This document shows positions 11,099-50,832 of a stretch of 64,000 nt of DNA, in pieces. A program made the translations under genes and the position numbers. Positions within the stretch are counted from its first letter, which is position 1; every line of letters begins with the position of its first letter. Source of the stretch: Planctomyces sp. SH-PL62 (lineage in GTDB: Bacteria; Planctomycetota; Planctomycetia; Isosphaerales; Isosphaeraceae); assembly GCF_001610895.1 (NCBI RefSeq), contig NZ_CP011273.1, positions 3,596,001 through 3,660,000 of the forward strand. Direction: 5' to 3'. Below the pieces are notes generated by a model. The model was not told where the DNA came from, ran no database searches, and saw nothing but the letters and a program-made list of their open reading frames with translations.

Positions 11099-11887
11099 TC
11101 AAGACGGCCGCCTCTCCCGATCCCGGTTGCGTCGCTTCATCCCCCATCCGGCGGCGGCGGCGAGGGCGAAGACGGCCCACGCGCCGGGCTCGGGCACGCT
11201 GTTCGGCGTCAGGAGGAAGTTCGAGGACACCCCGTCGGGATTATTGCCCATGCCGAGGATCTGGCCCTTGTCGTTGATGTCCAGCAGGCTCAGGTTCTTC
11301 CAGTTCAATCCAGGGGGAAGGAGTTCGGCCAGCCTGTGGATGGTCGTCTCGCCCGCGGCGGCGTAGAAATAGCCCCCATCCTCCCTCCTGCTGTAATCGT
11401 TGACCCGCGAGATCTGGCCGATGATCTCGCCGGCGGCGTTGATTTTGGTTCCTTGGATGGAGTTCCAGTAGTCGTCCGTCAGCATCCTGGTGGTCCAACC
11501 GGTCGGGTTGGGGAGGGAGTTGGGCGTGTGTACGACGGTTTTATACATGTACCGGCCGGGGGAGCCGTTGCCGAGGCTGGTGATCATGAGGCTTCCGTCG
11601 GGGGTGCCGTCTGCGACCTCGGCCCAGGTGGAATGGCCGTAGGACGGCAGATGGAGATTCGATCCTCCGCTCCATCCTTTACCGTCCCGGTACGTCGGCC
11701 CATTGGGAATGGTGCGGATCGGCCGCTCGATGAGGTTGCCGCCGTTGTCGAGCCCTCCCTTCCCACTGTAGGGGCCCAGATTGGTGAAGGTGTAGTTGCG
11801 CAGGGGGGCTGCGGAGACTGCTGGGGCGAGCAGTCCGAAGGCCGCGATGCAATAAAGCGGGAGGAGACGGCCGGTGATGCGAGGCAT
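11099..11887 (-). CDS. PEP-CTERM exosortase-substrate protein
   Basis: 262 aa. It has an N-terminal signal peptide (LPLYCIAAFGLLAPAVSAA) and a complete C-terminal sorting signal: SVPEPGAW, a hydrophobic helix (AVFALAAAAGWGM) and a basic tail (KRRNRDRERR). Such proteins are exported by Sec and then processed by an exosortase at the PEP motif. The body contains repeated HAF-like phrases (GEIIGQISRVNDYS, KGQILGMGNN) of the 'integral to surface' repeat type. No exosortase gene is in this window. It is divergent from the broken gene at 12209. Confidence 0.85.
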   Translation of the reverse strand: MPRITGRLLPLYCIAAFGLLAPAVSAAPLRNYTFTNLGPYSGKGGLDNGGNLIERPIRTIPNGPTYRDGKGWSGGSNLHLPSYGHSTWAEVADGTPDGSLMITSLGNGSPGRYMYKTVVHTPNSLPNPTGWTTRMLTDDYWNSIQGTKINAAGEIIGQISRVNDYSRREDGGYFYAAAGETTIHRLAELLPPGLNWKNLSLLDINDKGQILGMGNNPDGVSSNFLLTPNSVPEPGAWAVFALAAAAGWGMKRRNRDRERRPS

Positions 11888-12106: not shown

Positions 12107-12208
12107 GTGGGAATGTCGTCGGCGTTCGACGTTTTGGATCGCCGGCTCGGCGCGAACTCGGATTCGCGTGACATTCATCCTTGATGAACACCTTTGGGAG
12201 TATCCACT

Positions 12209-15200
12209 GTGAAGACCCGCGCGTCGCGGCGGCTGCGCGCGCCTTCGATCGAGTTGCTGGAATCGCGTCGCCTGCTGGCCCTTTCGGCCGCCTACCTCGG
12301 TCAGGACGGGCTCGACTACGTGGGGACGGATCGCGGGCCCGACGGCGTGGGGAGGGCCGTCCCCTATCCCAACGATTACCAGGACGTCCACATCCGGCTC
12401 GACGGTCTGGACCCGAACAAGACGGTCGCCAAGGTCCACGTCGCGAAAGAAGGAGGAGGATGGGACTGGACCTGGTGGAACACCGGCAAGGGCCAGTCCG
12501 CCTACTTCACGCGCGACTCGGTCAACAGCACGACCGGCCACGTCTACATCGAGCCGCGCGATCCCTATTCCGCCAACCATCTTTTCCAGGAGATCGCCGT
12601 CTAGTACGTCGGTGATTCGGCGCCGGTCACGACGACCACGAGGGCGACGGCGGCGGTCGACCTGGCCCTGCGGGCGCCAGGCAAGCAACTGCAAGTCACG
12701 TCGCTGGCGCAGGTAGCGCAGGACTGGACGAGCCCTAGCCTCAACGTCGGCCCCGACGGCGTCCAGGACGTGCGTATCCAGTTGGCGAACCTCTCGCCCT
12801 CCGATATCCGCCGGGTCGTTCTGGAGGGGCCTTCAGGAGGCCGAATCTGGGGCTGGGGGTGGAACAAGAATGAAGCCGTCGCCGTGGAAGACCACATGAC
12901 CGCCGAGTTTCGCAATCGAACCGGCGTCACCGGCTCCACGGCCGAGTTGTTCGTCGGGGCGGACGAGAACTTCCTGAATCAGACGTTCACGTTGACCGTG
13001 ACTTACGCCGACGGCAAACCGGGAAACCCAGATGATCCGATCCAATATAATCGGAAGGACAAGCCGCACCGCGTCACATTCACCGTCACCTCGGTGACGA
13101 GCGCGACGGCCGCCATGCCCGCCGTCGCGAACGCGAACCAGCCTCAGTTCCAGGCGTACAGCGAGCCGCAGGATCTGGCCACGGGGAAGAGCCGAATCCG
13201 GATCGTTCCGGGGAGCCTGCCCACGACGTCTGCGATCGTGAAGGCCCGGCTCGGCAACCAGCACGGAACGACCTGGGACATGGACCTGAGCGACGGCAAC
13301 CTTTACCAACTCAAGTACGACGCGGGAGCGGGACGCTTCGACTTCCTCCCCGTCCGCGACGAGCGAGGATCGAACCTCACGCTGGTTCTGACCTTCGCCG
13401 ACGGCAAGAAGGCGTTCGCCCGCTTCGCCGGAGTGGAAAGCGACATCAACCGCCGCTATCCCGATTCGCGAATCGGAGAGACCGCCTGGGACGTCAACAG
13501 CGCGGCGAGTCTGATCTCGGCGTTGAACGCTCAAAAGCCGCTGATCCAGCTTCAGTCGGGCTCCTATACATTCAACGGGCCGCTCACGCTCAACTACCCG
13601 GTTCGCATCAAGGCCGCTCCGGGAGTGACAGTGACTCTGACGTTCGCTCTGAACAACACGAACTACGGCAGCGCCGGAGCCTTCGTCGTGAATTCAAGCC
13701 ACGTCGCGCTCGACGGCTTCGCCATCCGGTTTCAGGGATACACTGACGTTCTGGGTTCGCCGCCGGACGGATGGGCCGTCATCCGGGGGAAAACCGACGA
13801 CCAGGATGTTGATGTGTCGATCACGAATCTGGATGTCGAGGCTCCGCGGCCTGGTCCCAGTGAGCCCCACCAGAAGGCGCTCGATCTGATGCACTTCGAC
13901 GACAAGGACTCAGGGGTCATTTCCGGCAACGTTCTGAAGGGGGGGAGTGTAGTTCTGGGGCACGGCCCCTGGTTGGTGGCCGACAACAAGTATCTAGGGG
14001 CGGTGGCGAGGACGACGGCTCAATCCTTCCTGGCGGGCTATCACCTTCACGACGTGGTCATCCGGGGCAACGATCTGCGACAGGAGGAGGCGGAGGGCTA
14101 CGCGCTGCGGTTCTTCTCGTTCGGCTCGTCGGACCACGGCCGCTGGTTCAACCTCGCCATCGAGAACAACAAGGTTCGCGCGGGGATCGGCAACCCCCCG
14201 ACAATTACGCCCCGCTCGGGGGAAATAGCCCCGAGATCATGTTGTTCGAGCAGTATCTGCCGCGATTCGAGGGGAAGCCGTCGGCGATCTCCCCGGATGG
14301 CTACGTGGTCCGGGTTCCCTACGTCCAGGGGGCCGTCTCGGAAGCCGGCGACGTCGTCTCGATTTTGACTGGAGTCCACGCCGGCCAGTGGCGGATGATC
14401 GCGGCGAAGTTCAGCGACACGGAGTATCTGCTTACCGAGCCGTTGCCGCTGGGCGATTACGTGATCTCGATCGGACGAGGGCTGGTCAACGCGACCATCC
14501 GCGGCAACGAGATCGACACGACGGGGCGGCACAACGAGACCGTCGGCCTCGTCATCACGAACAACGCCTGGGGGACCCGCGTCCTCGACAACACCTTCGT
14601 CGGCAACAACAGCCTTCGAATCCAGGCCGACGCAACCCAGGAATATCCGCCGGGCTCGAATCCCTCCCAGGTGATCTGGGGGAAGATGCTGATGCCCGTC
14701 TTCGACCTGACGGTCGACGGCAACACGTTCCGGGGGAACACGGGGGTCATCGGGGTTTCGCACGACAAGGCGTCGACGGTCGGACGCACCTACCTCACGG
14801 GGAGGTTCACGAACAACAAGTTCATCCGGGAGGGAGGCTCCGGGACCGGGATGCAGATCGGCCTTAAGGATTATGCCCAGAGCGCCCATCCCTGGATCAC
14901 TCCGGGCGCCTTGCGGCTGACCACGCAAAACAACTGGTGGGCGGACGCCTCGGCGGGGGGCGAGGGGACGATCCTGGTGACGGCGGCGCTGGTCGACGGC
15001 GTGGGGTCTCCATTGCGGACGATCAACCTGCCCGGCGCGTCCCTCGTCACCGGGCTCTCTCGGGGGCAGGACGGGCGCGACTTCATCGGCTCGGGCTCGA
15101 GTTCGACGGGCCCGGACGGTTTCCAGGATGTCCATCTGGTGCTCTCGGGGCTTCCGGAGGGGAAGACGATCTCGAAGGTCAAGATCGATGGCCAGGGCGG

Positions 15201-16713
15201 TGGCACCTGGTGGTTCGGCGACACGGGGACGACGGACAAGGCAGTTCTGGTCCGCAACGGAACCACGGCCGACCTGTACATCCAGCCCTACCAGAACGAG
15301 ACCGGACGCTACTTCACGATCAACATCACCTACACCGACGCGCCGACGCCGCCCCCGGTGGTGATAAGCTCGATCCACGCGATGGCGAAGCTTCCGATGC
15401 TCGCGAATCGGGTGGTTCCGTCTGGGATCGTCACCGCTCGCGGCAGCAACCCCGGCGGCGGCGAGGGGGCCGCGCAGGCGTTCGACGGCACGGCCCAGAC
15501 CAAGTGGCTGGACTTCGCCGGTTCGAGCTGGATCCAGTATCAGTTCGCGGCGGGGGCGGCGCACGTGGTCACGCAGTACACGATCACCAGCGCGAACGAC
15601 ACGGCCACATTTCCCACTCGGGCCCCGGAGAGTTGGATTCTCAAGGGGTCGAACGATGGCGCGAACTGGACGATCCTCGATTCGCGTCGCGGCGAGGCGA
15701 TCACGGCGAACTTCACGTCGCGGACGTATCGCTTCTCGAACACCACGGCGTTCAAATACTACAAATTCGACGACATCCTCGCCGGCAAGGACGCCAACGG
15801 CGACCGAGGCTCGGTCATCCAGGTGGGTGAGATCGCTCTCCAGACCTCTCGGGTCCTCGCGGTCAAGGCCGGCTCGGCGACGGTCGCGGGGTGGGGCGAC
15901 GACGCGGCCCACGCGAGCGGCGGCAACTTCTATTCCACCGGACAGTTCATCGACGTGAGCGCCGTCGTCGACCCCGCCCCCCAGTCGATCTATCAGAACG
16001 AGCGAAACGGGAACTTCACGTACACGATCTCGGGGCTGGCACCCGGCGGCAAGTACAAGGTGCGTCTCCACTTCGCCGAGAACTATTGGACGGCGCCCGG
16101 CCAGCGCACGTTCAACGTTGCCGTCAATGGATCGCTCGCGCTCGATCATTTCGACATCCTCGCCGCGGCTGGGGGCCAATACAAGGCGGTCGTGCGCGAG
16201 ATCGACGCGACGGCCGATTCCCTCGGCAGGATCGTCGTGAACTTCGACGGCACCGGTCAACCCGACCAACCCAAGGTCGGGGGCGTCGAGGTCGTGATCC
16301 CGAATATCGACCTCGCCCGCGGCAAGAGCGTCACGTCGTTGATCAATGAAAGCTCCTCGTTCGGCCCCGGCAACGTCGTGGACGGCGACGAGACGACTCG
16401 CTGGTCCAGTGGGCAGTGGTCCCGGAACAATCAGATCGCGTGGCTCGTGATCGACCTCGGTGCCCGATTCGACATCGACCGCGTCAGACTCAATTGGGAG
16501 GCCGCCTTCGGCGTCGACTACCAGATCCAGGTGAGCGACGACGGAAGCGACTGGACGATGGTTCGGGACGTCGTTGGGGCCACGACGGGGGGCGTCGTGG
16601 AACACGCGAATCTCAAGGCGGGAGGACGGTATGTGCGAATCTATATGACCCGATCTCGCATCAATCCGACGAACAACTTCTCGATCTACAGCGTGAACGT
16701 TCACGGTGCCTGA
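12209..16713 (+). pseudogene. Large secreted multi-domain carbohydrate-binding/beta-helix protein, broken by an in-frame TAG and a frameshift
   Basis: Read as one gene this would give about 1500 aa. It starts at GTG 12209, with GGGAG 8 nt upstream, and an N-terminal planctomycete motif LLESRRLLAL. Domains in order: a GPDG-QDV module (about 12280-12640), a second copy (12700-13010), a right-handed beta-helix (13480-14960), a third module copy (15040-15350), an F5/8-type C domain (15370-15850), a malectin domain (15855-16305), and a final F5/8-type C domain (16310-16713). The reading is interrupted by TAG at 12602-12604, with the same frame continuing perfectly afterward. A second break is a -1 frameshift at the C6 run near 14192-14198, where adding one C joins GIGNP to PDNYAPLGG. 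Both could be real decay or sequence errors. If intact it would bind sugars at the cell surface. Confidence 0.85.
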
Positions 16714-30839: not shown

Positions 30840-32480
30840 TCAGTAATAGAGCTGGCCGCGGATCCAGAACAGGTCGTTGATCCGGCTGTGGAGATGGGGG
30901 TTGAGCTCGACGGGTGAGTCGTAGTAGGAGCGTTGCCAGTCGAGATAGATCTTGAGGTAGCTGGTGAGGTACCAGTTCAGGCCGATGTCGGTCAGGGCCA
31001 GGCCGTTCGTCCATTTCTCGCGGTCGGCAAGCCCGGCGCGGAAGACCTCGTCGCTGAGGCGAAGCTCGCTGAACCGGGCGAACAGCTCGACGGCTCCGGG
31101 ACCCCAGGAGTTCCGCGTCGGATCGAACGGGCGGAGCGGGTCGACCCGGCTTCGATCCCGGACCTTCTCGCCGGTGAGGAAGTAGGCGAGCGTGATATGG
31201 CTGCCGGTCGCCGGCACCGAGAACAGCCGGAACGGCATCCCGCTTCGGGTGTAGTGGTCGCGGCTCCCCTGCCATTCGGCCTCGAACGACATCCCGCCGA
31301 CGTACCAGGCGAGATGCGCGGCGATCGCGCTATGGTCGCCGCTGAGGTAGGCGTCCTCCTCGAAATCCAGGAACAGCGAGGTCGCGCGGCGGGCGGCCTC
31401 GTCGTTCTCGGAAGACTGGAGCGAGGTCCGCAAGGGGAGCGGCCGTTGGGGGACGACCTGCTCTCCCAGATATCCGGAGAAGCCGAAATTGAAGTCGCGA
31501 AGCAGGGGGAACCGTTCGGTCTTCAGGAACGGCTTGAAGTTGAGGTAGGAGACGGCGTCTCGGGTGGTGTTCTCGTCCGCCAGGCCGGTCAGGTGGCCGT
31601 CGAAGCCGCCGACGGCGTACTCCATGCGGTCGTCGAACAGCAGGCCGTGGGCCATCAGCCCCGCCGACCGAGAGAGCCCGAAATTGAGCGGGAAGAGGGA
31701 ACGCTCCGGGGTGATGAAGTACTGCTCCAGGTGGTCGTACCAATCATAGCTGTACGGGACCAGGGTACGGCCGAACCGGATCCGGAATCGAGGGTCGATG
31801 TTGACGTCGACGTTGCCGTCCAGCAGGTCCCAGACTCCCTCGACGCTCCTCTGGATGGACACCTCGTAGTCGAAGAGGCGGGTCAGCCTGCCTTCGAAGT
31901 AGATGCGGACGCGGGGGATGTACAGGCCGCTGGACGCGGGGATCTGGTCGCCCGGCGAGAAGAGCTTGAAGTCGGTCTGATCCAGGATGCGGAAGCGGAG
32001 CTGGTACTCGTCGTCGAACGACCGCAGGGCGACCCCTTCCTCGCCGAAGGCCGCGCGGAGGGGAAGCTCCGGGAACGTCGGCCTGTCCGACGCCTCGTCC
32101 GCCTGGTCGCCCGTCGATTCGTCGTGGTCCGAGGGCGAATCCCGGAATCCCTCCGAGCCGAGCAGGGGTTCGAGGTCCGTCGCCGGCGACCCCTCGTCCG
32201 CGTTCCGCCCGTCCTGGCGTTCAAGGCGGTCTCGCAGCTCCTCGTACTTCGACTCCAGCGAGCGATAGCGCTCGTCGGCGGCCCGGCGGTCGCGCTCGGA
32301 CCGGTCGAGACGTTCCAGGATGGCCCGGTTCATCGACTCGAGGTCGCGGAAGCGGGCGTCGAGCGAGCCGGCGGGAGCCTCGGCGCGCGAGGGGGCTGGA
32401 TCGGTCGGGGGTCCGTCGGCCGCGACGCCTCCGACCGGGATGGAAAGCGCCGCGAGTGTGAGGATCGCCCTGGGCTTCAT
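30840..32480 (-). CDS. Outer-membrane porin of the phosphate-selective (OprO/OprP) type
   Basis: 546 aa. Signal peptide (ILTLAALSIPVGGVAADG), then a coiled coil at about 45-95 (SLESKYEELRDRLERQ) as in many planctomycete porins that reach toward the cell wall. An acidic linker follows, then a beta-barrel of about 16 strands ending in an aromatic C-terminus (LFWIRGQLYY). The barrel has typical phrases YIPRVRIYFEGRLTRLFDYE and GRTLVPYSYDW. Start at ATG 32480 keeps a compact signal peptide. It faces the HlyD/M50 cluster across 346 bp and may be its outer-membrane component (inference). Confidence 0.85.
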   Translation of the reverse strand: MKPRAILTLAALSIPVGGVAADGPPTDPAPSRAEAPAGSLDARFRDLESMNRAILERLDRSERDRRAADERYRSLESKYEELRDRLERQDGRNADEGSPATDLEPLLGSEGFRDSPSDHDESTGDQADEASDRPTFPELPLRAAFGEEGVALRSFDDEYQLRFRILDQTDFKLFSPGDQIPASSGLYIPRVRIYFEGRLTRLFDYEVSIQRSVEGVWDLLDGNVDVNIDPRFRIRFGRTLVPYSYDWYDHLEQYFITPERSLFPLNFGLSRSAGLMAHGLLFDDRMEYAVGGFDGHLTGLADENTTRDAVSYLNFKPFLKTERFPLLRDFNFGFSGYLGEQVVPQRPLPLRTSLQSSENDEAARRATSLFLDFEEDAYLSGDHSAIAAHLAWYVGGMSFEAEWQGSRDHYTRSGMPFRLFSVPATGSHITLAYFLTGEKVRDRSRVDPLRPFDPTRNSWGPGAVELFARFSELRLSDEVFRAGLADREKWTNGLALTDIGLNWYLTSYLKIYLDWQRSYYDSPVELNPHLHSRINDLFWIRGQLYY

Positions 32481-32826
32481 CCGTTTCGCAGCCCGCCTCT
32501 TTCGCCTGCCTTCGCGAGATCGCCGCATCGCACGGCGGCGCGACGGATCACGGCCCAAATGCATGAGCCGGCATGGGCTTTATCGACCCTGCGGAGGACG
32601 GTCTTGATTCCCCGATCGTTGAAGTCGGAACCCGCCGGGAGACGCCCGCGCGGATTTTCGACGGGAACGTCAGGAATGTGCCGGGAGTCGCCGTCCCGTT
32701 GTCCATGTCAAGCTGCGTCGCGCGCCGGTTCGGGAGCTTTGGAGGTCGGGGCGCGGCCGTCGCCGAGTGGACATGGATCCCGCCGGGGTGCGAGACGACC
32801 CCGGTCCTCAACGAACTGGTACCACC
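32481..32826. other. 346-bp divergent regulatory gap between porin and export-like cluster
   Basis: No gene seen. It separates the porin (minus) from the GAF-HlyD gene (plus). No clear -35/-10 pair is recognised on either strand, and only weak Shine-Dalgarno matches precede the two starts. Confidence 0.5.
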
Positions 32827-34923
32827 ATGCCGGAAGAAACCATCGACGCCGGTCTGCTCGAGCAGACGAAGAATCAGATCCGCAAGCTGGTGGCCGAGAT
32901 CGCCGATCTGGCCGAGTCGGACGTCCAGCCCGGCGAATTCTATGGGGAATTCCTGAACCGGGCCGTGGCGGCGACCGCCGCGTCCGGCGGCGCGTTCTGG
33001 CTGCTGGACGGTCGGGGCGGGCTCCGGCTCCAGTATCAGCTCGACTTCGCCCAGACCGGCCTCATGGACGGGCGGGTGAAGACCGCCTCCCACGACGCGC
33101 TGCTCGGCTGCATGGTCCAGGCCTCGCAGCCCCAGGTGATCCCCCCCGGCGCGGTGATCGAGGGGATGCCACAGGCGTTCAACCCGACCCACCTGACGAT
33201 CATCCTCGCCCCCCTGATCGTCGATAAGCAGGTGGTCGGCCTGCTCGAAATCCTGATGGACCCGAACCGCCGGGCCGCCCAGCAGAAGAGCACGCTGCGG
33301 TTCGTCGGCGACCTCACCGACCTGGCCGCGAACTATCTGAAGAACCGCCAGATGCGGCAGATGGTCTCGCAGCAGCGGATGTGGAATCAGCTGGAGACCT
33401 TCACCCACCAGATCCACCACACGCTGGACTTCAAGGAGACCACCTACGCCGTCGTCAACGACGGCAAGCGACTGGTCGGCTGCGACCGCCTGAGCGTGGC
33501 CATGAAGATCTCGGGCCGGACCCTGGTCGAGGCGATCAGCGGCCAGGAGGTCGTCGAGCAGCGGTCGAACCAGGTCCGCGAGCTGACCAAGCTCTGCAAG
33601 GCGGTGCTCCGCTCCGGCGAGGACCTCGTCTACACCGGCCACACCGAGGGGTTCGCCCCGGACATCCGCGACGCCCTGGAACTCTACGTCGACGAGTCGG
33701 GCTCGAAGGCCGTCGCCGTCGTCCTCCTCTACAAGCCCGAGAAGGAGGAGGGGCCGGAGCGCAAGGAGAAGGTCGCCTACGGCTGCCTGGTCGCCGAGCA
33801 GATCGGCGACGAGATCGCCCCGACCGACATGCACGCCCGGACCGAGGTGGTCTCGCGGCACGCCTCGACGGCCCTCTGGAACGCCCAGGAGCACCACCGG
33901 ATCTTCCTCCGGCCCGTCCTCAAGGCGATGGGCTCCCCCTGGCGGCTCCTGCGGGGCCGGACCCTGGCCAAGATCCTGGCCGTGCTGGCCCTGATCGTCG
34001 CCCTGATCGGCGCGCTCACCTTCGTCCCCTGGAACCTCCGCATCGAGGGCCGAGGCTCGCTCCTCCCCGAAGAGCGGCACACCGTCTACGCCCCCAACCC
34101 GGGCATCATCGTCGAGGCCCCCGTCGAGCACGGCGACCGCGTCAAGAAGGGGGACGTGATCGCCCGCCTGGACAGCCGCGAGCTGGAGAAGGAGCTCAAG
34201 AAGCTCACCGCCGAGTACAACAAGGCCAACACCCAGGGCCTGATCCTCCGCCAGCAGGAGGAGTCGGCCAACGAGCGCGAGCGGAACCGGCAGGAAGGCC
34301 TGCAGCTCCAGGCCCAGCTCACCGAGGCCCAGATCACCGCCCGGAGCACCAAGGAGCAGATCGACATCACCAAGGAGCAGATCGACGAGATGTCGATCCG
34401 CGCCCCGCACGACGGCCTCATCACCACCTGGGACGTCAAGAAGACGCTGCTAGGCCGCCCGGTCGACATCGGCACCGACCTGCTCCAGCTCGCCGAGACC
34501 GAGGGCGAATGGGTGCTCGAGGTCGAGGTGCCGGACGACGACATGGGCCCGGTCCTGGCCGCCCAGGCCCGGCTCGACGCCGAGGTCGCCGCCGGGACCA
34601 AGCCCGCCGGGTCCACCCTGGCGGCCTACTTCGTGGTGATGACCGAGCCCGAGCACCGCTACCAGGGCTACGTCCGCCGGATCGCCGCCAAGGCCGAGAC
34701 CAAGACCGAGAGCGCCGAACAGCGGCACACCGTCAAGGTCACCGTCGGCTTCAGCGACGCGGTCCGCGCCGAGTTCCTCCAGCGCAACCAGGAGTTCCGC
34801 CCCGGCGCCGAGGTCCGCGCCCGGATCGACTGCGGCGACGCCCGCCTGGCCTACGTCCTCTTCCGCAAGGTCGTCCAGGTCTGGCACGAGTCGGTCCTCT
34901 TCCGCTGGCCGTTCCTCCAGTGA
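32827..34923 (+). CDS. GAF-domain/HlyD-type membrane fusion protein
   Basis: 698 aa. Two GAF-like sensor domains, about residues 35-175 and 195-355 (VNDGKRLVGCDRLSVAM), are followed by one membrane helix at about 379-400 (LAKILAVLALIVALIGALTFV). A lipoyl/biotinyl-like half-motif follows (YAPNPGIIVEAPVEHGDRVKKGDVIARLDS, about 420-450), then a coiled-coil hairpin (450-535) and a second barrel half (APHDGLITTWDVKK). The adaptor is thus tethered in the inner membrane with cytoplasmic GAF domains. First of three clustered genes encoding HlyD-type parts; the ATG at 32827 is chosen at MPEETIDAG. Confidence 0.85.
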   Translation: MPEETIDAGLLEQTKNQIRKLVAEIADLAESDVQPGEFYGEFLNRAVAATAASGGAFWLLDGRGGLRLQYQLDFAQTGLMDGRVKTASHDALLGCMVQASQPQVIPPGAVIEGMPQAFNPTHLTIILAPLIVDKQVVGLLEILMDPNRRAAQQKSTLRFVGDLTDLAANYLKNRQMRQMVSQQRMWNQLETFTHQIHHTLDFKETTYAVVNDGKRLVGCDRLSVAMKISGRTLVEAISGQEVVEQRSNQVRELTKLCKAVLRSGEDLVYTGHTEGFAPDIRDALELYVDESGSKAVAVVLLYKPEKEEGPERKEKVAYGCLVAEQIGDEIAPTDMHARTEVVSRHASTALWNAQEHHRIFLRPVLKAMGSPWRLLRGRTLAKILAVLALIVALIGALTFVPWNLRIEGRGSLLPEERHTVYAPNPGIIVEAPVEHGDRVKKGDVIARLDSRELEKELKKLTAEYNKANTQGLILRQQEESANERERNRQEGLQLQAQLTEAQITARSTKEQIDITKEQIDEMSIRAPHDGLITTWDVKKTLLGRPVDIGTDLLQLAETEGEWVLEVEVPDDDMGPVLAAQARLDAEVAAGTKPAGSTLAAYFVVMTEPEHRYQGYVRRIAAKAETKTESAEQRHTVKVTVGFSDAVRAEFLQRNQEFRPGAEVRARIDCGDARLAYVLFRKVVQVWHESVLFRWPFLQ

Positions 34924-35024
34924 GACGAGGCCGTCGAGAACCCCGAATCCGCGAGCCCGGCGCGTCGGCCGGGCCGCCTCCCCCACACCGCCATCGATCA
35001 TCCCGAGTGGAGGTCCGCCGACCC

Positions 35025-35972
35025 ATGTCCCCCCTGAAGACCGCCGCATCCGTCGCCCTCGGAGCCCTCGCGACCCTCTCCGTCGCCGCGTTCGGCCAGA
35101 ACGGGCCCGCCACGGCCCCGGCCTCGGCGCCGACCGCCACCCTGGTCCTCGACTCGCACGACCAGCTCGCCACCATCGCCTGGATCGAGAAGTCGGACGT
35201 CGCCGCCCTCCGCGAAGGGGTCATGGAGAAGATGGAGCTGCGGCTCGGCGACGCGGCCCAGGCGGGCGCCGAGATCGGCTCGCTCCACAAGGAGATCGCC
35301 GAGCTGAGCGTCGCCAAGAGCAAGCTCACGGCCGAGAGCCGGGGGTCCGTCGAGAAGGCCAAGGCCGCCAGCGAGGTCGCCGAGGCGGCCGTCGCCCGCA
35401 ACCGCCGCCTCGTCGCCCGCAAGGCCGACCTGGTCTCCCAGGAAGAGATGACCAAGTCCGAGGGCGAGTTCAAGGTCGCCGTCGCCCAGGTCAAGGAGGC
35501 CGAGGAGCAGATCGCGATCAACATGGCCGAGCTCGCCCTGGCCGAGCAGATGCTCCGCGAGCACACGATCTACGCGCCGTTCTCCGGCATGATCATCAAG
35601 CGCTACAAGGAGCCGGGCGAGAGCGTCCAGGCCAACGAGGCCGTCGTCCAGATGGGCAACCTCTCCCGGCTCGCGGCCACGGCGTTCGTCCCGCTCGACT
35701 ACGCCTACCGCGTCAAGGTCGGCCAGGTCGTCGAGCTTCAGCCCCGCCTCGACGGCAGCCGCGGCGACCAGTCCATCGAGCGGAAGACCTTCCGGGGCGT
35801 CATCAAGTTCGTCGACCCCGAGGTCCAGGCGATCGCCGAGAGCGCCGTCCGCATCCGCGCCGAGTTCGAGAACCCCGACCTCGAGCTGCGTCCCGGCCTC
35901 AAGGCGGCCATGACCATCTACCTCAACGACGAGGAGGTCGCCGCCCGGCCCTCGTCGCGACCGGCCCGCTGA
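35025..35972 (+). CDS. Periplasmic adaptor (HlyD/RND-type membrane fusion protein)
   Basis: 315 aa with a signal peptide (AASVALGALATLSVAAFGQ). A coiled-coil hairpin (LHKEIAELSVAKSKLTAES, SEVAEAAVARNRRLVARKAD) is flanked by a lipoyl-like half (IYAPFSGMIIKRYKEPGESV) and a beta-barrel (GNLSRLAATAFVPLDYAYRVKVGQVVELQP). It is short, lacking a long membrane-proximal domain. Second in the cluster, 101 nt after the GAF-HlyD gene, with GGAGG before the ATG. Likely bridges inner-membrane and outer-membrane parts of the same machine. Confidence 0.87.
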   Translation: MSPLKTAASVALGALATLSVAAFGQNGPATAPASAPTATLVLDSHDQLATIAWIEKSDVAALREGVMEKMELRLGDAAQAGAEIGSLHKEIAELSVAKSKLTAESRGSVEKAKAASEVAEAAVARNRRLVARKADLVSQEEMTKSEGEFKVAVAQVKEAEEQIAINMAELALAEQMLREHTIYAPFSGMIIKRYKEPGESVQANEAVVQMGNLSRLAATAFVPLDYAYRVKVGQVVELQPRLDGSRGDQSIERKTFRGVIKFVDPEVQAIAESAVRIRAEFENPDLELRPGLKAAMTIYLNDEEVAARPSSRPAR

Positions 35973-36076
35973 CCTGACGCGACGCGGGCCCGATCGACCC
36001 GGCCTCGACGGCCGGGGAGGGCCCGCAACCCCCCCACGAAGACGCCCCGCACGGCCCTGCCGAGGATCGCCGATCG

Positions 36077-38263
36077 ATGAGCGCAGCACCCTCCACCACC
36101 CCGGCGCCCTTCGGACAGGCCGCCGAACATCTCAGGGTCAAGCTCCGCCGGGACCTGGTGGTCCAGCCCCAGTTCTATGAGGGGATGACCCACTACGTCA
36201 TCAAGGACCCGCTGGCCCTCAAGTACTTCCGGTTCAAGATCGAGGAATACTTCCTCCTCCAGCAGTTCGACGGCAAGAACAACCTCCAGGACGTCAAGCG
36301 GGCCTTCGAACGCAAGTACCGGCCCCAGACGATCTCGATCGAGGACCTCACCCGGTTCGTGGCCCAGCTCCACGAGGCCGGCGTCGTCCAGATCGACAGC
36401 CCGGAACAGGCCGCCGCGCTGATCCGCCGCCGTCGCAAGAACAAGTGGAAGAAGGTCTGGGGCTTCCTCGCCAACATCCTGTTCATCAAGATCCCGGTCA
36501 TCGACCCCGAGCGGCTCCTGACCTGGATGTACCCCTATTTCCGCTGGCTCTTCACCCGCGCGTTCGTCGCCGGCAGCGTCTTCCTGATGCTCGCCGCGGT
36601 GACCCTGGTGGTCAGCCAGTGGAGCCAGTTCTACGCCAAGCTCCCCGAGTTCCAGAGCTTCTTCAACTGGTGGACGATCTTCACCTTCTGGATCAGCCTC
36701 GCCGTCGTGAAGATCATCCACGAGTTCGGCCACGGCCTCACCGCCAAGCACTTCGGCGGCGAGGTCCACGAGATGGGGATGCTCTTCCTCGTCCTCACCC
36801 CGGCCCTCTACTGCGACGTCACCGACAGCTGGCTCCTGCCCAACAAGTGGCATCGGATCTGGATCTCGGCCGCCGGCATCTACGTGGAGCTGTTCCTCGC
36901 CAGCATCGCCACCTTCGTCTGGTTCAACACCGAGCAGGGGCTCCTCAACAGCCTCGCGATGGCCGTCATGTTCATCTGCTCGGTCAACACCGTGTTGTTC
37001 AACGCCAACCCGCTGCTGCGGTACGACGGCTACTACGTCATGTCGGACTGGCTGGAGATCCCCAATCTGCGGATCAAGAGCACCCAGTTCTTCACCTACC
37101 TGATCCAGGAGAAGGTGCTCGGCCTGGAGATCCCCGTCCAGAGCTACATGCCGCGGTCGCGGCGGAGCCTGTTCGTCACCTACGCCATCGCCAGCTACCT
37201 GTACCGCTGGGTCGTCACCTTCAGCATCCTGTTCTTCCTGTCCCAGGTCCTCAAGCCGTACAAGCTCCAGGCGCTCAGCTACATGCTGGCCCTCGGCTCG
37301 CTGGTCCCGCTGTTGGGGATGCCCATCTACCAGATCGGTAAATTCCTACGCACCCCCGGGAGGATGCGCAAAGTGAAGAAAGCTCGCGCGGCCGCCTTCG
37401 CCGCGGCGTTCGTCGCCCTCGTGGCCGGCGTCCTGCTGATCCCCACCCCGCTGCGCATCCAGGGGACGCTCGTCCTCTCGCCGGCCAAGCCCACCGAGAT
37501 CTATTCGGAGGTCGAGGGCCGGCTCGTCGAGCTGGCCGTGCTCGACGGCCAGTGGGTCAAGGAAGGCGACGTGATCGCCAAGCTCGTCAACCACGAGAAG
37601 CAGAAGGAGCTGATCCAGCGCCAGTCCGAGCACGACGCCTACTGGTTCAAGGCCCTCTGGTACGGCCGCAGCCCCGAGAACGAGGGCCGCGCCCAGGCCC
37701 GCCAGAGCGTGCAGATGGCCGAGGAGCTGGAGCCCACGCTCGCCAAGATCAACGAGCAGCTCGGCAAGCTGGTCCTCACCGCCCCCCGCGACGGCCAGGT
37801 CATCGGCGTCCCCCACCCCGAGACGGTCGGCCAGTGGGTCAAGCCCGGCAAGCCCTTCTGCGAGGTCGCCGACCCCCACCACCTCGAAGCCCACCTGATC
37901 ATCGACCAGTCCGACATCGAGCTGATCCGCCTCTCGCCCCCGCCCCAGGCCTGGGTCAAGGTCTACGGCCGCTCCGAGATCACCCTCAAGAGCACCGTCG
38001 CCCAGATCGCCAAGCGGAACCGCGAGGAGATCCCCATCGAGCTCTCCAACACCGCCGGAGGTGAGATCGCCGCCTCCCCCGACCCCAAGACCGGCCAGAT
38101 CAAGCCTCAGTCCGCCGTCTACGAGGTCGTCATCCCCATCGAGAACCCCAACCTCGAGTTCCACCCCGGCCAGCGCGGGTTCGCCAAGATCGACGCCGGC
38201 ACCCACACCTTCGGCTGGTGGCTCTGGCGGCTCCTTACCAAGACCTTCCACTTCACCATCTGA
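36077..38263 (+). CDS. M50 (site-2-protease-like) metalloprotease fused to HlyD-type domain
   Basis: 728 aa. N-terminal PqqD-like winged helix (about 40-110, YFRFKIEEYFLLQQFDG), then a polytopic M50 core: zinc motif HEFGH at 215-219 (VVKIIHEFGHGLTAKHFGG), second motif NPLLRYDGYY at 311-320, and about six membrane helices (165-450). A lipoyl/barrel adaptor follows (475-728; EIYSEVEGRLVELAVLDGQWV, LVLTAPRDGQVIGV). Known M50 proteases cut within membranes, and PqqD-like domains bind peptides, so this fusion could process and export a peptide. Third gene of the cluster, 104 nt after the adaptor. Confidence 0.9.
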   Translation: MSAAPSTTPAPFGQAAEHLRVKLRRDLVVQPQFYEGMTHYVIKDPLALKYFRFKIEEYFLLQQFDGKNNLQDVKRAFERKYRPQTISIEDLTRFVAQLHEAGVVQIDSPEQAAALIRRRRKNKWKKVWGFLANILFIKIPVIDPERLLTWMYPYFRWLFTRAFVAGSVFLMLAAVTLVVSQWSQFYAKLPEFQSFFNWWTIFTFWISLAVVKIIHEFGHGLTAKHFGGEVHEMGMLFLVLTPALYCDVTDSWLLPNKWHRIWISAAGIYVELFLASIATFVWFNTEQGLLNSLAMAVMFICSVNTVLFNANPLLRYDGYYVMSDWLEIPNLRIKSTQFFTYLIQEKVLGLEIPVQSYMPRSRRSLFVTYAIASYLYRWVVTFSILFFLSQVLKPYKLQALSYMLALGSLVPLLGMPIYQIGKFLRTPGRMRKVKKARAAAFAAAFVALVAGVLLIPTPLRIQGTLVLSPAKPTEIYSEVEGRLVELAVLDGQWVKEGDVIAKLVNHEKQKELIQRQSEHDAYWFKALWYGRSPENEGRAQARQSVQMAEELEPTLAKINEQLGKLVLTAPRDGQVIGVPHPETVGQWVKPGKPFCEVADPHHLEAHLIIDQSDIELIRLSPPPQAWVKVYGRSEITLKSTVAQIAKRNREEIPIELSNTAGGEIAASPDPKTGQIKPQSAVYEVVIPIENPNLEFHPGQRGFAKIDAGTHTFGWWLWRLLTKTFHFTI

Positions 38264-40131: not shown

Positions 40132-43100
40132 TCAGGTGAACGGGTTCTTGATGTCGTCCCAGAGCTTCTCGAGGGCGCTCTTCTTGCCGGCTTCGGCCTT
40201 GGCGGCCTTCTGGGCCGCGGCCTTGGCGGCCTGGGCCTGGGCGGCGGCCTGCTGCTGGGCGGCCAGCTCGGCCGCGGCGGTCTTGGCGGCGGCCGACGGG
40301 TCGGGGGTCGTCGGCGTCGTCGGGACTTCGGTGGAGACCGCGGCCGTCGACACGGGCGTCGCGGCGGCGGCCGGATCGGTCGTCTGGTCGGCGACCAGGG
40401 GCGTGGCCGTCGGCAGCGTGGTGCTCGGCTTGCCGGTCTGCTGGTTCTGGTTCGCCAGGTTGACCAGGGCGGCCACGATCTGGTTCGACTGGTCGCCGGT
40501 CGCGGCCGGAGTCGTGGTCGTCGGGGTCGGGGTCGGCGTCGGGGTCGGCGTCGGGGTCGGGGTGGGCGCCGGGATCGGCGTCGGGGTCTGATTCTGAGAG
40601 ATCACCCCGCCCTGGACGACGCTGATGAGGTTGACCTTTTGGCCGTTGACCACCTTGGTGGTCGAGATGGCCCTGGACTCCCTTTGCTGGTGCTGCGGGG
40701 AGTTCTGGAACAGCGTGTAGACCGGGAACGACGTGCCGGGGGCCTCGTTGCGGTCGATCTTGAACCGGGCCGGCGACATGCCGCGATAGCGGGCGACGGC
40801 GGCCTTGGGGACCCACATGAAGTTCGGCAGCTTGTGCTGCAGGGCCGTGGTGTTCCGCTGGGCCGTGGGGTCGACGAGGAAGCCGTTGACCGAAGCCCGC
40901 TGGCGGTCGACGACCACATAGTCGTCCGGCTTGGGGAGGAGGGTCTGCGAGAGCATCTTGAGGCTCTCGAGGCTGACCCCGCCCTTGAGCTGGCCGTTGG
41001 CGATGAAGTCGAAGAAGTTGAACCGCCGCTGGAGGACCGCGGGCTGGTCCGGATTCTCGTTGAAGAGGAGGTTGTTGATGCCTCCCTCGGGCTGGGCGTA
41101 GGTGGCGGTGCCGCCGAGGAACCGGGCCATGGCGCCGGCCTCGGGCATGCCCTTGGTGGCGGCCGTGTCGGTGAAGTCCTGGACCTCCTGGGCCGTCAGG
41201 ACGCCGTCGTTGTTGGCGTCGATGATCGGCAGGATGTTGTGGCTGATCAGGTAGTTCAGGGCGATCGTGCCTTCGATCGCGGCGACGGCGTTGCTGACCG
41301 AGACGCGGGCGTAGGCCGGCGGCTCGTTGGCCCCCACGAACTTGTTCTGCTTGTCGGTCGAGCTGACCAGGGCCGGGGTGGCGAGGCTGCCGCCGTCGTT
41401 GAGGTCGAAGGCGGGGACGGCCGTCCAGGCGAGGATGCCGTTGATCCCGTCGGGCGAGTTGTAGGCCGAGAGGTCGCCGATCGCGTGCTGGCCGAAGTTC
41501 AGCGTGCGGACGCCGACCGGGGTGGTCAGGTAGGCGTCCGAGGTGATCCCCTGGTCCTTGTTGATGTTGGTCCAGTAGTCCAGGGCCGAGGCCACCATGG
41601 CGTAGGCGCCGGTCAGGATGCCGGTGGACATCGAGGTCCCGACCTGGGTGAAGGTCAGGCGGTTGGCGGCGTCGCCGGTGCTGTCGGCGGTGGTCCCGCC
41701 GGTGGTGCTCCCGGCCTGGATCTCGGAGAACCGCCTGCGGAACGTCGGCACGTCGATCGCCGGGGCGGCGAAGTCGGTGGCGATGCCGCGGTTGACGGCC
41801 CCCGGGATGCGGTCGTTCCAGATGTTGAAGTCGGCCCCGGCGAAGATGTCGACGTTCCCCGCGACGTTGGTGTCGGTCCCGCCGCCGCCGGTCCCGCCGC
41901 CGCCGGCGTTGGTCCCGCCCGCGGTGGCCGTCCCGCCGATCGAGATGGCGTTGCCGAAGACCAGGATCGGGCCGCGCGGGTTGGGGATCGCCCCCACGGG
42001 GACGTTGTTCGGCGTCGTGTTGACGTCCCCGGCGTACGGGAACGGATAGACGCCCGTCACCGAGATCGTCTCGTTGAGGATGGCCGGCAGCGACATGCCA
42101 TTGGTGTCGCCCAGCGAGGGATCGTCGGCGTTGCTCCGGAACTGGCCGGTGTTCGTGCTGCCGGTGGTGGTGCCGCCGCCGGTGCCGCCGCCGGTCCCGC
42201 CGCCGGTGGTCCCGCCGCCCGAGCCCAACCCGAGCGGAGAGCCGAACTGGCCGGCCGCCGCGATCGGCGCGATCCCGAGCTGGCGGAACTTCTTGAGCTG
42301 GAGCTTCAGGGCGATGACGATCTGGGGGTAGTTGCGGTACGCCTGGGCCTCGCTGGTCCAGGTCTGGGTAGTGCCGAAGGCCATCGTCGAGGCGATGACG
42401 CGGGACACCTGGCCCGGCCGCACCGGGTCGTTGACGTAGGGCCGCGAGGCGACGTAGGCCAGGCCGTTGTAGACGCCGTTGGTGGTCGTCAGGGCGTTGG
42501 CCGCCGCGGTCAGGCTGGTGGTCCCGCCGGTGTTGCCGCCGGTGCCGCCCCCGGTGCCGCCCCCGGTCCCGCCGCCGCCGGTGGTCCCGCCGATGGAGAT
42601 GGTCCGGTTGCCGAAGTAGGGGGAGAAGATCGACACCGGGTCCAGGGTCGCCTGGGGCACGAACTGGGCGACCACGCCCGCCACCGGCGTGCCGTGGCCG
42701 TCGAAGCTGTTGGCGAGGACGGTGCCGGTGGTGGTGGTGCCGCCGCCGGTGCCGCCTCCGGTGCCGCCGCCGCCGGTGGTCGTGGTGCTCGTGTCGAGCG
42801 AGGCGACGTCGATGTTGCCGTTGCCCCCGGTGTAGAGGTTTTTGCCGGCCCCGACGCGTCCCCGGAAGGGGGAGGAGAGGGAGTCGACGCCCGTGTCGAC
42901 GACCGCCACCGCACTGCCGCGGCCGTCATACGGCACGCCCAGGGTGCGGAGGTCGTTCAGGCCGATCAGCGAGCCGGAGGTCGAGCCGGCGAGGCTGGAG
43001 CTCGTCTTGAACTGCCAGATGCCGTCGCCGTCCGAGGCGTAGAAGGTCGTGCCGTCGGCGGAGAAGGTGATGCTCAGGGTCGAATCCATGAAGCTGGTCG

Positions 43101-44688
43101 AGTCCTGGGCGCCCGAGGTGTTGAAACCCTGGGCGAACACCGAGATGACGCCGCCCGGCGTGATCCGGATGACCCGGCCGCCGACGTTGCTGCCGCCGGT
43201 CGTGTTGCCGTTGCGGACGATCGGCACCAGCGGGTTGGTCGCGGCGTTGTAGGGCTGCGTCGGGTCGGCCTTCTCGATGCCGATGAAGCCGCTCCCCTGC
43301 ACCGGCACGTTCACGATGACGCCGGCCGGGATGTCCCCTTCCTCGACCGAGGTGACGGGCACGAACAGGCCCGACGCCAGGTCGCTGACGAACAGGTTGC
43401 CGGCGTAGGTCGGCTGGCCGGTGATCGTTAGGCCGGTGGTGGTCCCGGTCGTGGTGGCGGCGTCGGCGGCCTCCAGGCCGATCGATTGGGCGAAGTAGCT
43501 GTACTGGTCGAAGGCGATGTCCTGGAACCGCCGGAACGGCGTGCTCAGGATCGACGACTCGTCGACCACCAGGGTCTCGGCGGTCGTCGCGTCGGTCACC
43601 ACCGTCGCGCCGATCAGGAAGTCGCCGTTGGAGCCCTGGACGCCGCTGAACCCCGGCGTCGCCGGGATCCCGCCGCCCGAGGGCGTGCCGAAGTCGGTGA
43701 AGGCGGAGTAGACCGGCGAGAAGTAGTCGATGTTCGCCTGGGTCATGCCCACGATCGGCCCGAACGACATCCCGGTCTCCGAGACTCCCTTCGGGAGGCT
43801 CGCGGCGTTCGAGATGACCTGGCCCGGCGAGTACTGGTTGGCGTCGAAGAACAGGGCCGCCATGGTCCCGCCCGTCGAGCTGACGCCGCTGCCGGCGATC
43901 ACCCCGCGGAGGAACTTCTGGAACTCCGGTCCCGGCACGACGACGGCCGTCGGGTTGATGTTGAACTTGGTCGCCGCCTGGCCGTCGGTCAGGGTGACGA
44001 AGGCCCCCATGAACGAGCCGTCGGCGCCGATCCGGTAGATCGCGTTCTTGGCCGGGTCGGAGCGGTCCGCCGTGGTGACCAGCATCGACGCCTTGCCGTC
44101 GATGTAGCCCTCGGAGTCGAACGCGATGTCGTACCAGTTGGTGAGACCGGTCGCGTCGACCGCATCCCCGGTCGCCCCGCCCAGCGAGTTCGCCGCCGGG
44201 TTGCTCCCGTCAGTGTTCAGGGCGTTGGGATCGATCTGGCTCATCACCGTGTTCAGGTCGAAGAACACGCTGGCCTTGCCCGTCGCCGGGTCGATCCGGT
44301 AGATCACGCCCGGGCGGTCCACGGCCCCTTCGACGTCGCCGCCGCCGCGGGAGACGGCGTAGAGGCCGTTGCCGAAGATCCCGCCCGGCCCGGCCTGGAT
44401 CCGGACCATGTCGCCGCCGAACGACGACAGCGGGGTCAGCTCGGCCACCGACGTGATCGGCGCGGGGCTGGTGAGCGTGTCGGCCTCGGTGTTCGAGCTG
44501 ACGACGACCGTCCCCAGGAAATTGTTGGTCGGCGTTTCCGCCGCCGTGAACACGGCCTGCGTCGGAAAGATCGGCACCACCGGGGCGAGCAGGGCGCGCT
44601 GCTCCAGGGGGGTGGGGCCTTCGAGCTTGATGTTGCGATGACGCCGCTTCGCTGGGCCCTGAGCCCGCGGTCGGGATGGCTGAGACAT
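40132..44688 (-). CDS. Giant secreted subtilase (S8) with Gly-Thr tracts, EF-hand and Pro-Thr linker
   Basis: 1518 aa from the ATG at 44688, with AGGAGA upstream. The N-terminus carries the planctomycete export motif PLEQRALLAPV. Residues 60-560 resemble a beta-propeller of NHL/PEP type. The subtilisin domain has Asp598 (AVVDTGVD), His665 (DGHGTPVAGVVA) and Ser1019 (VGTSMSTG). The usual oxyanion Asn segment reads AAAGQFGS, with Gln in place of Asn. Four Gly-Thr tracts (about 636-655, 700-725, 823-845, 915-938) sit between core elements. A perfect EF-hand is at 1157-1168 (DANNDGVLTAQE), and a Pro-Thr tract (1368-1393) precedes an Ala/Gln-rich helical tail. Probably a surface protease; activity unproven given the Asn change. 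Confidence 0.9.
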   Translation of the reverse strand: MSQPSRPRAQGPAKRRHRNIKLEGPTPLEQRALLAPVVPIFPTQAVFTAAETPTNNFLGTVVVSSNTEADTLTSPAPITSVAELTPLSSFGGDMVRIQAGPGGIFGNGLYAVSRGGGDVEGAVDRPGVIYRIDPATGKASVFFDLNTVMSQIDPNALNTDGSNPAANSLGGATGDAVDATGLTNWYDIAFDSEGYIDGKASMLVTTADRSDPAKNAIYRIGADGSFMGAFVTLTDGQAATKFNINPTAVVVPGPEFQKFLRGVIAGSGVSSTGGTMAALFFDANQYSPGQVISNAASLPKGVSETGMSFGPIVGMTQANIDYFSPVYSAFTDFGTPSGGGIPATPGFSGVQGSNGDFLIGATVVTDATTAETLVVDESSILSTPFRRFQDIAFDQYSYFAQSIGLEAADAATTTGTTTGLTITGQPTYAGNLFVSDLASGLFVPVTSVEEGDIPAGVIVNVPVQGSGFIGIEKADPTQPYNAATNPLVPIVRNGNTTGGSNVGGRVIRITPGGVISVFAQGFNTSGAQDSTSFMDSTLSITFSADGTTFYASDGDGIWQFKTSSSLAGSTSGSLIGLNDLRTLGVPYDGRGSAVAVVDTGVDSLSSPFRGRVGAGKNLYTGGNGNIDVASLDTSTTTTGGGGTGGGTGGGTTTTGTVLANSFDGHGTPVAGVVAQFVPQATLDPVSIFSPYFGNRTISIGGTTGGGGTGGGTGGGTGGNTGGTTSLTAAANALTTTNGVYNGLAYVASRPYVNDPVRPGQVSRVIASTMAFGTTQTWTSEAQAYRNYPQIVIALKLQLKKFRQLGIAPIAAAGQFGSPLGLGSGGGTTGGGTGGGTGGGTTTGSTNTGQFRSNADDPSLGDTNGMSLPAILNETISVTGVYPFPYAGDVNTTPNNVPVGAIPNPRGPILVFGNAISIGGTATAGGTNAGGGGTGGGGTDTNVAGNVDIFAGADFNIWNDRIPGAVNRGIATDFAAPAIDVPTFRRRFSEIQAGSTTGGTTADSTGDAANRLTFTQVGTSMSTGILTGAYAMVASALDYWTNINKDQGITSDAYLTTPVGVRTLNFGQHAIGDLSAYNSPDGINGILAWTAVPAFDLNDGGSLATPALVSSTDKQNKFVGANEPPAYARVSVSNAVAAIEGTIALNYLISHNILPIIDANNDGVLTAQEVQDFTDTAATKGMPEAGAMARFLGGTATYAQPEGGINNLLFNENPDQPAVLQRRFNFFDFIANGQLKGGVSLESLKMLSQTLLPKPDDYVVVDRQRASVNGFLVDPTAQRNTTALQHKLPNFMWVPKAAVARYRGMSPARFKIDRNEAPGTSFPVYTLFQNSPQHQQRESRAISTTKVVNGQKVNLISVVQGGVISQNQTPTPIPAPTPTPTPTPTPTPTPTTTTPAATGDQSNQIVAALVNLANQNQQTGKPSTTLPTATPLVADQTTDPAAAATPVSTAAVSTEVPTTPTTPDPSAAAKTAAAELAAQQQAAAQAQAAKAAAQKAAKAEAGKKSALEKLWDDIKNPFT

Positions 44689-47187: not shown

Positions 47188-50832
<3,645 letters not shown>

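Follow-up and report, generated by a model that had tools for sequence, protein, structure and literature searches.

What does a planctomycete gene set carry when three adjacent genes all encode HlyD-type adaptors and one of these adaptors is fused to a membrane protease? We addressed this question for a 64,000-nucleotide stretch of Planctomyces sp. SH-PL62 (G000:C1:3596001-3660000 of a 6.78 Mb genome; this whole stretch is referred to as the window), which among named records is matched most closely by planctomycetes of Isosphaeraceae type, including Singulisphaera and Tautonia. The three genes lie side by side on the + strand and encode a tandem-GAF protein with one transmembrane helix and a MacA-like adaptor (GAF-HlyD, 32827-34923, 698 amino acids (aa) from its ATG), a short HlyD/RND-type adaptor (HlyD, 35025-35972, 315 aa), and a fusion of an RRE-like domain, a site-2 protease of the M50 family and a MacA-like adaptor (M50-HlyD, 36077-38263, 728 aa). 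Genome comparisons suggest, with a probability of about 0.6, that these proteins and a secondary SecA encoded elsewhere in the genome make up a machine dedicated to exporting and processing proteins that carry the LExRxLL signal, many of them very large surface proteins.

The gene set itself is not new: it is real, conserved and previously listed. In the consulted passages of their paper (PMC4452313), Kamneva, Poudel and Ward (2015) group GAF-HlyD, M50-HlyD and HlyD with a secondary SecA ATPase, call their role "completely unknown", suggest that the M50 protein forms a pore and that SecA gives ATPase activity, and also report cases of unlinked SecA. The signal has a literature of its own. Its published motif, RRLxxExLExRxLLA (Pfam PF07595, Planc_extracel; Studholme 2004), is regarded as an N-terminal signal for export, and in Tuwongella it was found in 52 genes and on eight of the ten longest proteins (both from passages of PMC8567305). 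No exporter assigned to the LEPR-XLL or LExRxLL signal was found in the literature searched, the consulted parts of PMC8567305 included. Nor did we find an earlier link between signal and machine in that literature (subscription papers and preprints lay outside the search), or in the passages seen of PMC10952558, PMC9430717, PMC7730722, PMC5177795, PMC10868602, PMC2754498 and PMC8277102. As far as the search reaches, both the pairing of signal and machine and the assignment of the RRE domain are new. Two orphans, a signal known since 2004 and a SecA/M50/HlyD set described in 2015 with no cargo attached, look like the signal and the machine of a single pathway.

Co-occurrence of the LExRxLL signal and the gene set

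We compared the distribution of signal and set in 294 Planctomycetota genomes, drawn evenly, of which 67 were set-positive (M50-HlyD profile at E <= 1e-30) and 43 signal-positive (signal profile at E <= 0.01). The signal was present in 31 of the 67 set-positive genomes versus 12 of the 227 set-negative ones (Fisher p 4e-14), and outside the window's class in 17/47 versus 12/226 (p 8e-8). Outside the class, we fetched and read 40 of the 44 set-positive matches (leaving out both from G149, one from G221 and one from G290) and all 14 set-negative matches, a reading that was not blind to group. All 40 set-positive matches read as N-terminal LExRxLL starts, 34 of them with an upstream in-frame stop in the fetched stretch. 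Such a stop preceded four of the 14 set-negative matches, among which one was convincing, two were ambiguous (L125, L130) and the others resemble internal frames or frames on the wrong strand. Keeping only these three set-negative genomes gives p 5e-12. The independent model PF07595, at E <= 0.003, matched 14 genomes, 11 of them set-positive (p 9e-6); the other three were G110 and G280, with artefact-like sites, and G235. A correlation of this kind would also arise if LExRxLL proteins left the cell by Sec, with the set serving some other process tied to the same lineages and lifestyle. That signal and set are both abundant in the same class, and that related genomes are dependent, fits such an association without function. 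We nevertheless consider it quite unlikely, as in each of the families f11, f22, f36, f73 and f81, which hold both kinds of genome, the convincing signal sits in a set-positive genome (f36 also has one ambiguous set-negative site, L130), and as plasmid sets carry a signal giant alongside and signal N-termini are mostly not Sec-like (both described below).

Signal and set are also associated physically. In set-positive genomes, 14 of 121 signal matches were no more than 10 kb from a gene for M50-HlyD or secondary SecA, where 1.65 would be expected if they were placed at random; the maximum among 100,000 simulations was 10. Without the five sites that had been used to build the profile, the linkage was 9/116 by hand count (Poisson 4.5e-5 at an assumed 1.6). 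In a motif scan of 41 stretches, which were chosen around M50 or SecA2 genes or the window and only seeded the profile, LE.R.LL had nine matches, compared with one to six for each of eight altered patterns.

Our evidence from outside the planctomycetes rests on plasmid records, because a genome-contig scan aimed at other phyla returned planctomycete records for all of its best 80 loci, one of them titled merely "bacterium". A tblastn search of plasmids with M50-HlyD gave 80 records, 40 of them listed, and we read 16 loci. Three of these lack a gene table for the region (L257, L258, L261) and 13 are annotated, with incomplete gene tables. Upstream of the set lies a gene of 6.2-48.7 kb in 11 of the 13 annotated loci; in the remaining two, the place is cut by the record start (L081) or has nothing annotated (L264). 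Three of these giants are annotated "LEPR-XLL domain-containing protein", and of six giants tested with the NCBIfam model LEPR-8K (NF012209), four exceeded the cut-off (Thalassospira, Pseudosulfitobacter, Methylosinus and Pontibrevibacter). As LEPR-8K barely matches planctomycete N-termini (one weak match, under the cut-off, among eight), we built two profiles of our own, A1 and A2. We searched 12 of the 16 records with profile A2, made from plasmid-giant and planctomycete N-termini, and omitted the other four for size. In eight of the 12, all of them alphaproteobacterial, the best hit of A2 (E 7e-8 to 0.03) forms the beginning of a 4,054-12,957-aa frame next to the set; four of these N-termini had been in A2 (W01, W04, W06, W08), the adjacency in W03 crosses the record start, and that in the unannotated W09 follows from coordinates. 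A2 had no match in the adjoining gene of the E. coli, Azospirillum thermophilum, Cupriavidus and Variovorax records. A variant core does stand near the N-terminus of the E. coli (LESRQLFDGA), Variovorax (LEARYMFDAA) and Kosakonia (LEPRMLFDGA) giants. Genes linked to the set in proteobacteria include SecA-like ATPases as well as giant proteins, and a TolC gene adjoins the set on several plasmids. The original prediction, made from the window sequence alone, had proposed a small membrane-cleaved peptide as the cargo; the cargo candidates that are linked to the set are large LExRxLL proteins instead.

Some further features of the plasmid loci were observed along the way. E. coli plasmid pABWA45_1 (L083, L091) and Kosakonia (L263, L283) have a giant gene with immunoglobulin-like domains, TolC, HlyD, HlyD and M50-HlyD in a row, with LExRx(L/M)FDGA near the N-terminus of both giants. 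The M50-HlyD search matched 18 Escherichia and eight Citrobacter plasmid records, of which one E. coli record was read. On several alphaproteobacterial plasmids, a gene for a small DUF3467 protein separates the adaptor genes from the giant gene, or from the place where the giant gene would be (L082 6663-6959, L079 6699-7019, L086 6818-7099, L260 4748-5053, L264 5709-6053); this protein is possibly a chaperone or secretion factor. At L089 (NZ_CP123586.1 near 183237), a LEPRLLL signal lies in frame upstream of the deposited start of a giant calcium-binding protein.

In the window, the proposed cargo is a large LExRxLL-signal protein whose gene faces M50-HlyD (40132-44688, - strand, 1,518 aa). 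Its LEQRALL core (44587-44607, - strand) lies 27 residues after the likely ATG at 44688. The protein has subtilase-like DTG, GHGT and GTS motifs and no Pfam match. Its signal scores E 8e-7 with profile A1 and 0.0018 with A2, the sequence itself being in both profiles, and it matches neither of the curated signal models PF07595 and NF012209. An orthologue adjoins the set in six of 14 Isosphaeraceae loci, and direct reading of these six showed a LExRx(L/M/V)(L/M/F) core in five and the variant LEDRKLP in one. A regular expression for signals near the set found nothing in 18 Isosphaeraceae loci; the pattern called for E or D at the second position ahead of the core, and the window-type signal has neither there. 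Across its own genome, profile A1 had 37 matches at E <= 10, and 29 of the best 30 were N-terminal by eye (two of them part of the profile), lying 14-58 residues past the start codon that our script picked. Before the motif, these 29 N-termini consist of 28% Arg+Lys and 4% Asp+Glu. Only two of them contain a Sec-like hydrophobic stretch, defined as ten residues with a mean hydropathy of at least 2.0, a level reached by three ordinary signal peptides of the window. PF07595 had seven matches at E <= 0.01 in this genome, two of them over the cut-off (C1:5859341 and C1:2730808), and matched one of 14 control genomes, that of Deinobacterium chartae, below the cut-off.

Architecture and conservation of the set

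The M50-HlyD protein joins three parts, as we saw from Pfam (M50 35.5 bits versus a cut-off of 27.2; HlyD_3 45.2 versus 22.2) and from an AlphaFold model based on 46 sequences (mean predicted local distance difference test score (pLDDT) 82.3, predicted template modelling score (pTM) 0.60). Structure searches were run with whole models, so that weaker domain matches may be missed. Residues 19-111 (36131-36409, + strand) of the model match lasso-peptide leader-binding proteins that were solved with leader, namely TbiB1 with its leader peptide (5v1v, Z 11.2, root-mean-square deviation (rmsd) 2.8, 87 residues aligned), 5v1u (Z 11.1) and 6jx3 (Z 11.0). The modelled winged-helix fold over these residues is that of an RRE domain, for which leader binding is predicted. 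The PqqD model TIGR03859 gave only 12.6 bits against a cut-off of 46, and the PqqD-like domain that had been proposed for this protein holds as a leader-peptide-binding fold of the RRE kind. Residues 193-327 resemble the site-2 protease RseP (7w6y, Z 10.4, rmsd 3.7, 24% identity), and residues 457-709 resemble MacA (9qgy, Z 17.3, rmsd 3.4). To judge from the model, M50-HlyD appears to unite a fold for reading leaders with a membrane protease and an adaptor in a single chain.

The protease core is complete, as had been predicted. The HEFGH zinc motif occupies residues 215-219 (36719-36733, + strand) and the second M50 motif, NPLLRYDG, residues 311-318 (37007-37030, + strand). H215, E216, H219, N311, P312, R315, D317 and G318 are invariant in the 46-sequence alignment, which includes the window protein, and the first three are also invariant in 17 sequences with proteobacterial ones among them. 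HExxH and NPxxxxDG-type motifs in a membrane protein with an RseP-like fold make this an M50 site-2 protease. The RseP likeness would also suit regulated intramembrane proteolysis, in which the M50 part cleaves a membrane-bound regulator and the GAF protein is the sensor, with no role in export. This is very unlikely, as it leaves the HlyD adaptors and the TolC and giant genes that are co-encoded on plasmids unexplained. The best curated match of the M50 core is the daptide HExxH protease (185.1 bits), followed by YydH/LiaK (47.8 bits); both scores lie below the curated cut-offs of 300 and 225, so that membership of neither family is indicated. These scores, together with the likeness of the RRE fold to lasso-peptide leader binders, would fit a generalised form of the original prediction: maturation akin to that of ribosomally synthesised and post-translationally modified peptides (RiPPs), with the RRE-M50 protein cutting a small modified peptide that the adaptors export. 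We regard such maturation as unlikely, given the sub-threshold scores and the giant genes upstream of the plasmid sets. Furthermore, no radical SAM or other peptide-modifying enzyme stands beside the set in the 13 annotated plasmid stretches, although their gene tables are incomplete and small unannotated peptides were not searched systematically.

Pfam, run on the eight open reading frames (ORFs) between 30316 and 44844, backs the label of each of the three genes and bears out the claim that all carry HlyD/lipoyl-type adaptor parts (HlyD_3 and HlyD_D23 matches). GAF-HlyD, for which an alternative earlier GTG start is possible at 32767, was said to join two GAF domains to its adaptor. One GAF domain exceeds its Pfam cut-off (PF01590, 32.5 versus 22.4) alongside HlyD_3; the second falls under the cut-off by sequence (20.2 versus 27.0), yet is clear in the model (pLDDT 88.1, pTM 0.43). 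In structure searches of this model, residues 16-367 resemble the tandem GAF of PDE5A (Z 19.6, rmsd 9.4) and residues 378-680 resemble MacA (Z 16.1), with the hydrophobic helix at residues 383-401. The short HlyD adaptor scores 59.6 bits with HlyD_D23 (cut-off 30) and passes TIGR01730 with 110.3 bits (cut-off 94.9). These likenesses are what one would expect if the adaptors served unlinked RND or ABC efflux pumps and the M50 and GAF parts were regulatory: both the M50 and the GAF protein have adaptor parts like MacA/MexA, the short protein fits an RND adaptor model, and the genome has many matches to OEP, the TolC-like family (17 in total). Service to efflux pumps is nonetheless a rather improbable role for an adaptor that is covalently fused to a membrane protease and an RRE fold, and whose linked genes in proteobacteria include giants and SecA-like ATPases.

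The set is widely conserved. M50-HlyD is matched in 59/59 near genomes, our own included (a fragment only in G012 and G034), and GAF-HlyD, HlyD and M50-HlyD are contiguous in 18/18 Isosphaeraceae loci read, two of which (L181 and L295) are one contig, to judge by length. Wider counts come from the best 80 loci of the genome-contig scan, many of them short. GAF-HlyD lies at most 6 kb upstream of M50-HlyD on the same strand in 47 of the 54 loci with at least 5 kb upstream, which bears out the suggested check of gene order, and a short HlyD match lies between them in 21 of the 54. Several genomes of the class (G042, G046, G055, G243, G264, G286 and others) have two or three M50-HlyD paralogues, which suggests parallel machines.

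The divergent neighbour at 30840-32564 (- strand) is indeed a porin (Porin_O_P, 50.9 bits versus a cut-off of 20.9). It had been counted as a fourth member of the system. It stands at the same place in 5/5 same-genus loci and in 0/9 fetched Isosphaeraceae loci of other genera (L294 has one distant copy elsewhere), and no porin match occurs in the best 80 genome-contig loci, many of them short. We therefore reject the porin as a partner of the set outside the genus and treat it as a neighbour.

The absence of an ATPase, also noted originally, holds for the eight scanned ORFs, among which we found no ABC protein or local pump; a local pump or ABC ATPase is thus rejected as partner of the set. 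The genome does encode a secondary SecA_DEAD protein (C1:4669876-4671051, 655 aa, PF07517 359.6 bits), and a canonical SecA lies within the window (47188-50832, - strand, 1,214 aa). The missing ATPase is a matter of linkage. Secondary SecA is present in 57/59 near genomes, judged from open-frame lengths (fragments only in G008 and a few others; canonical SecA only in G019 and G037), and across 16 sequences neither its Walker A (GEGKT) nor its DEAD residues vary. In some relatives its gene adjoins the M50 gene or is no more than about 4 kb from it, and in seven of the 47 genome-contig loci with at least 8 kb upstream it lies within the locus. Over the phylum, the SecA2 profile also matches canonical SecA. 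The nearest OEP frame (575 aa, C1:3661245-3662420) is found just outside the window, at a distance of about 27 kb from the set. With no ABC protein of the HlyB kind among the eight ORFs and no TolC/OEP in the locus, we do not class the set as a type I secretion system.

The canonical SecA gene lies a few kb past the LExRxLL gene at 40132-44688. A canonical SecA match also stands at the edge of the corresponding stretch in G003, G028 and G022, so that synteny around the set is partly kept across the family. A second LExRxLL-signal ORF (12194-12604, + strand, LLESRRLLA) apparently opens a gene that reads on through further frames up to 16713 (12194-12604, 12770-14368 and 14239-16713); its signal does not pass the curated model where tried. 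This seems to be a frameshifted or decaying surface-protein gene, or the product of sequence errors. Finally, 11099-11887 (- strand) encodes a small secreted protein with the C-terminal end VPEPGAWAVFALAAAAGWGMKRRNRDR, which resembles a PEP-CTERM sorting tail.

A proposed export pathway

We propose export and processing of LExRxLL proteins because the gene set is conserved, the M50 catalytic residues are intact and the model has RRE, site-2 protease and MacA folds; because signal and machine are associated both statistically and physically; because the signal N-termini are Arg/Lys-rich and mostly without a Sec-like hydrophobic stretch; and because a secondary SecA with intact Walker A and DEAD motifs is present. 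In such a machine, the RRE domain would bind the LExRxLL signal in the cytoplasm and SecA would give ATP-driven pushing. The membrane protease core would be the entry site and cut the signal, the three MacA-like adaptors would form a periplasmic path to a TolC-type outer membrane channel, and the cytoplasmic tandem GAF domains may gate the machine. We see roughly even odds that this is a route of export separate from Sec, Tat and type I secretion, in which an RRE domain reads an N-terminal signal and a SecA-like motor feeds a site-2 protease-MacA-like adaptor fusion, the signal being cut and the cargo leaving by a TolC-type channel. The same reading takes LExRx(L/M)FD(G/A)A as the beta/gamma-type signal, with cargo of up to about 13,000 residues in signal frames. 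An envelope-spanning export and processing system, as first proposed, was the right kind of reading and its gene order is conserved, but the porin drops out, a SecA ATPase exists and the candidate cargo is large.

A number of observations weigh against export of LExRxLL proteins by this set. In the window genome, the secondary SecA is about 1 Mb from the set, there is no TolC/OEP in the locus (the nearest match being C1:3661245), only one of about 29 signal genes lies near the set, and the protein of that gene, 40132-44688, is one of the two N-termini with a hydrophobic stretch. PF07595 at E <= 0.01 has no match in 12 of the 59 near genomes, though all 59 match M50-HlyD. In the phylum-wide sample, 36 of the 67 set-positive genomes have no signal at E <= 0.01, which may reflect a weak 24-residue profile, distant paralogue sets or other signal types. 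Conversely, the signal at L131 is convincing though its genome, G235 (6% contamination), is set-negative. The signal counts are lower bounds in both groups, as at most 29 candidates were scored per genome, and the Fisher tests count related genomes as independent. The signal profile was partly built from sequences beside the set, which make up five of the 14 linked sites, and four of the 14 come from one genus (g27: two from G042, one each from G046 and G286). On plasmids, two Azospirillum giants have no signal at their annotated start, and no SecA gene is found in the annotated stretches of the beta/gamma-type sets. The literature searched holds no test of any transport or cleavage step.

If the proposed pathway is real, it would fill the place of the exporter that planctomycete surface giants have lacked, and it would extend to Alpha-, Beta- and Gammaproteobacteria, E. 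coli plasmids included. It would explain the surface placement of many very large planctomycete proteins, and protein export would be a new use for both an RRE domain and a site-2 protease.

Comparison with known systems

The closest known system is the locus of Kamneva et al. (2015). As in that locus, the same three protein types are encoded together and a secondary SecA_DEAD is present in the genome. Unlike the locus described in the consulted parts of PMC4452313, the window set has its SecA unlinked and no OEP in the locus, a difference that is not decisive as regards SecA; those parts name no cargo and no RRE domain. The signal has the same N-terminal RR..E.LE.R.LL motif as PF07595 Planc_extracel and NF012209 LEPR-8K, and two sites in the window genome pass PF07595, whereas the signal proteins of the window itself fall short of the curated models where these were tried. 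M50-HlyD has a HExxH membrane core homologous to that of the daptide and YydH-LiaK RiPP metalloproteases (NF041824, NF058609), but it scores below both curated cut-offs, has an extra adaptor domain and is seen with no peptide locus. With MacAB-TolC and type I secretion, the set shares an adaptor fold of the MacA kind (Z 17.3) and, on several plasmids, an adjoining TolC. It differs from type I secretion in that no ABC protein was found among the scanned neighbours, the adaptor is fused to a protease, and the signal is N-terminal, whereas type I secretion signals are C-terminal. The PEP-CTERM/EpsH system, as described in the consulted passages of PMC1569441, has a C-terminal signal and a different machine, but there too a sorting signal was paired with its machinery by phylogenetic profile.

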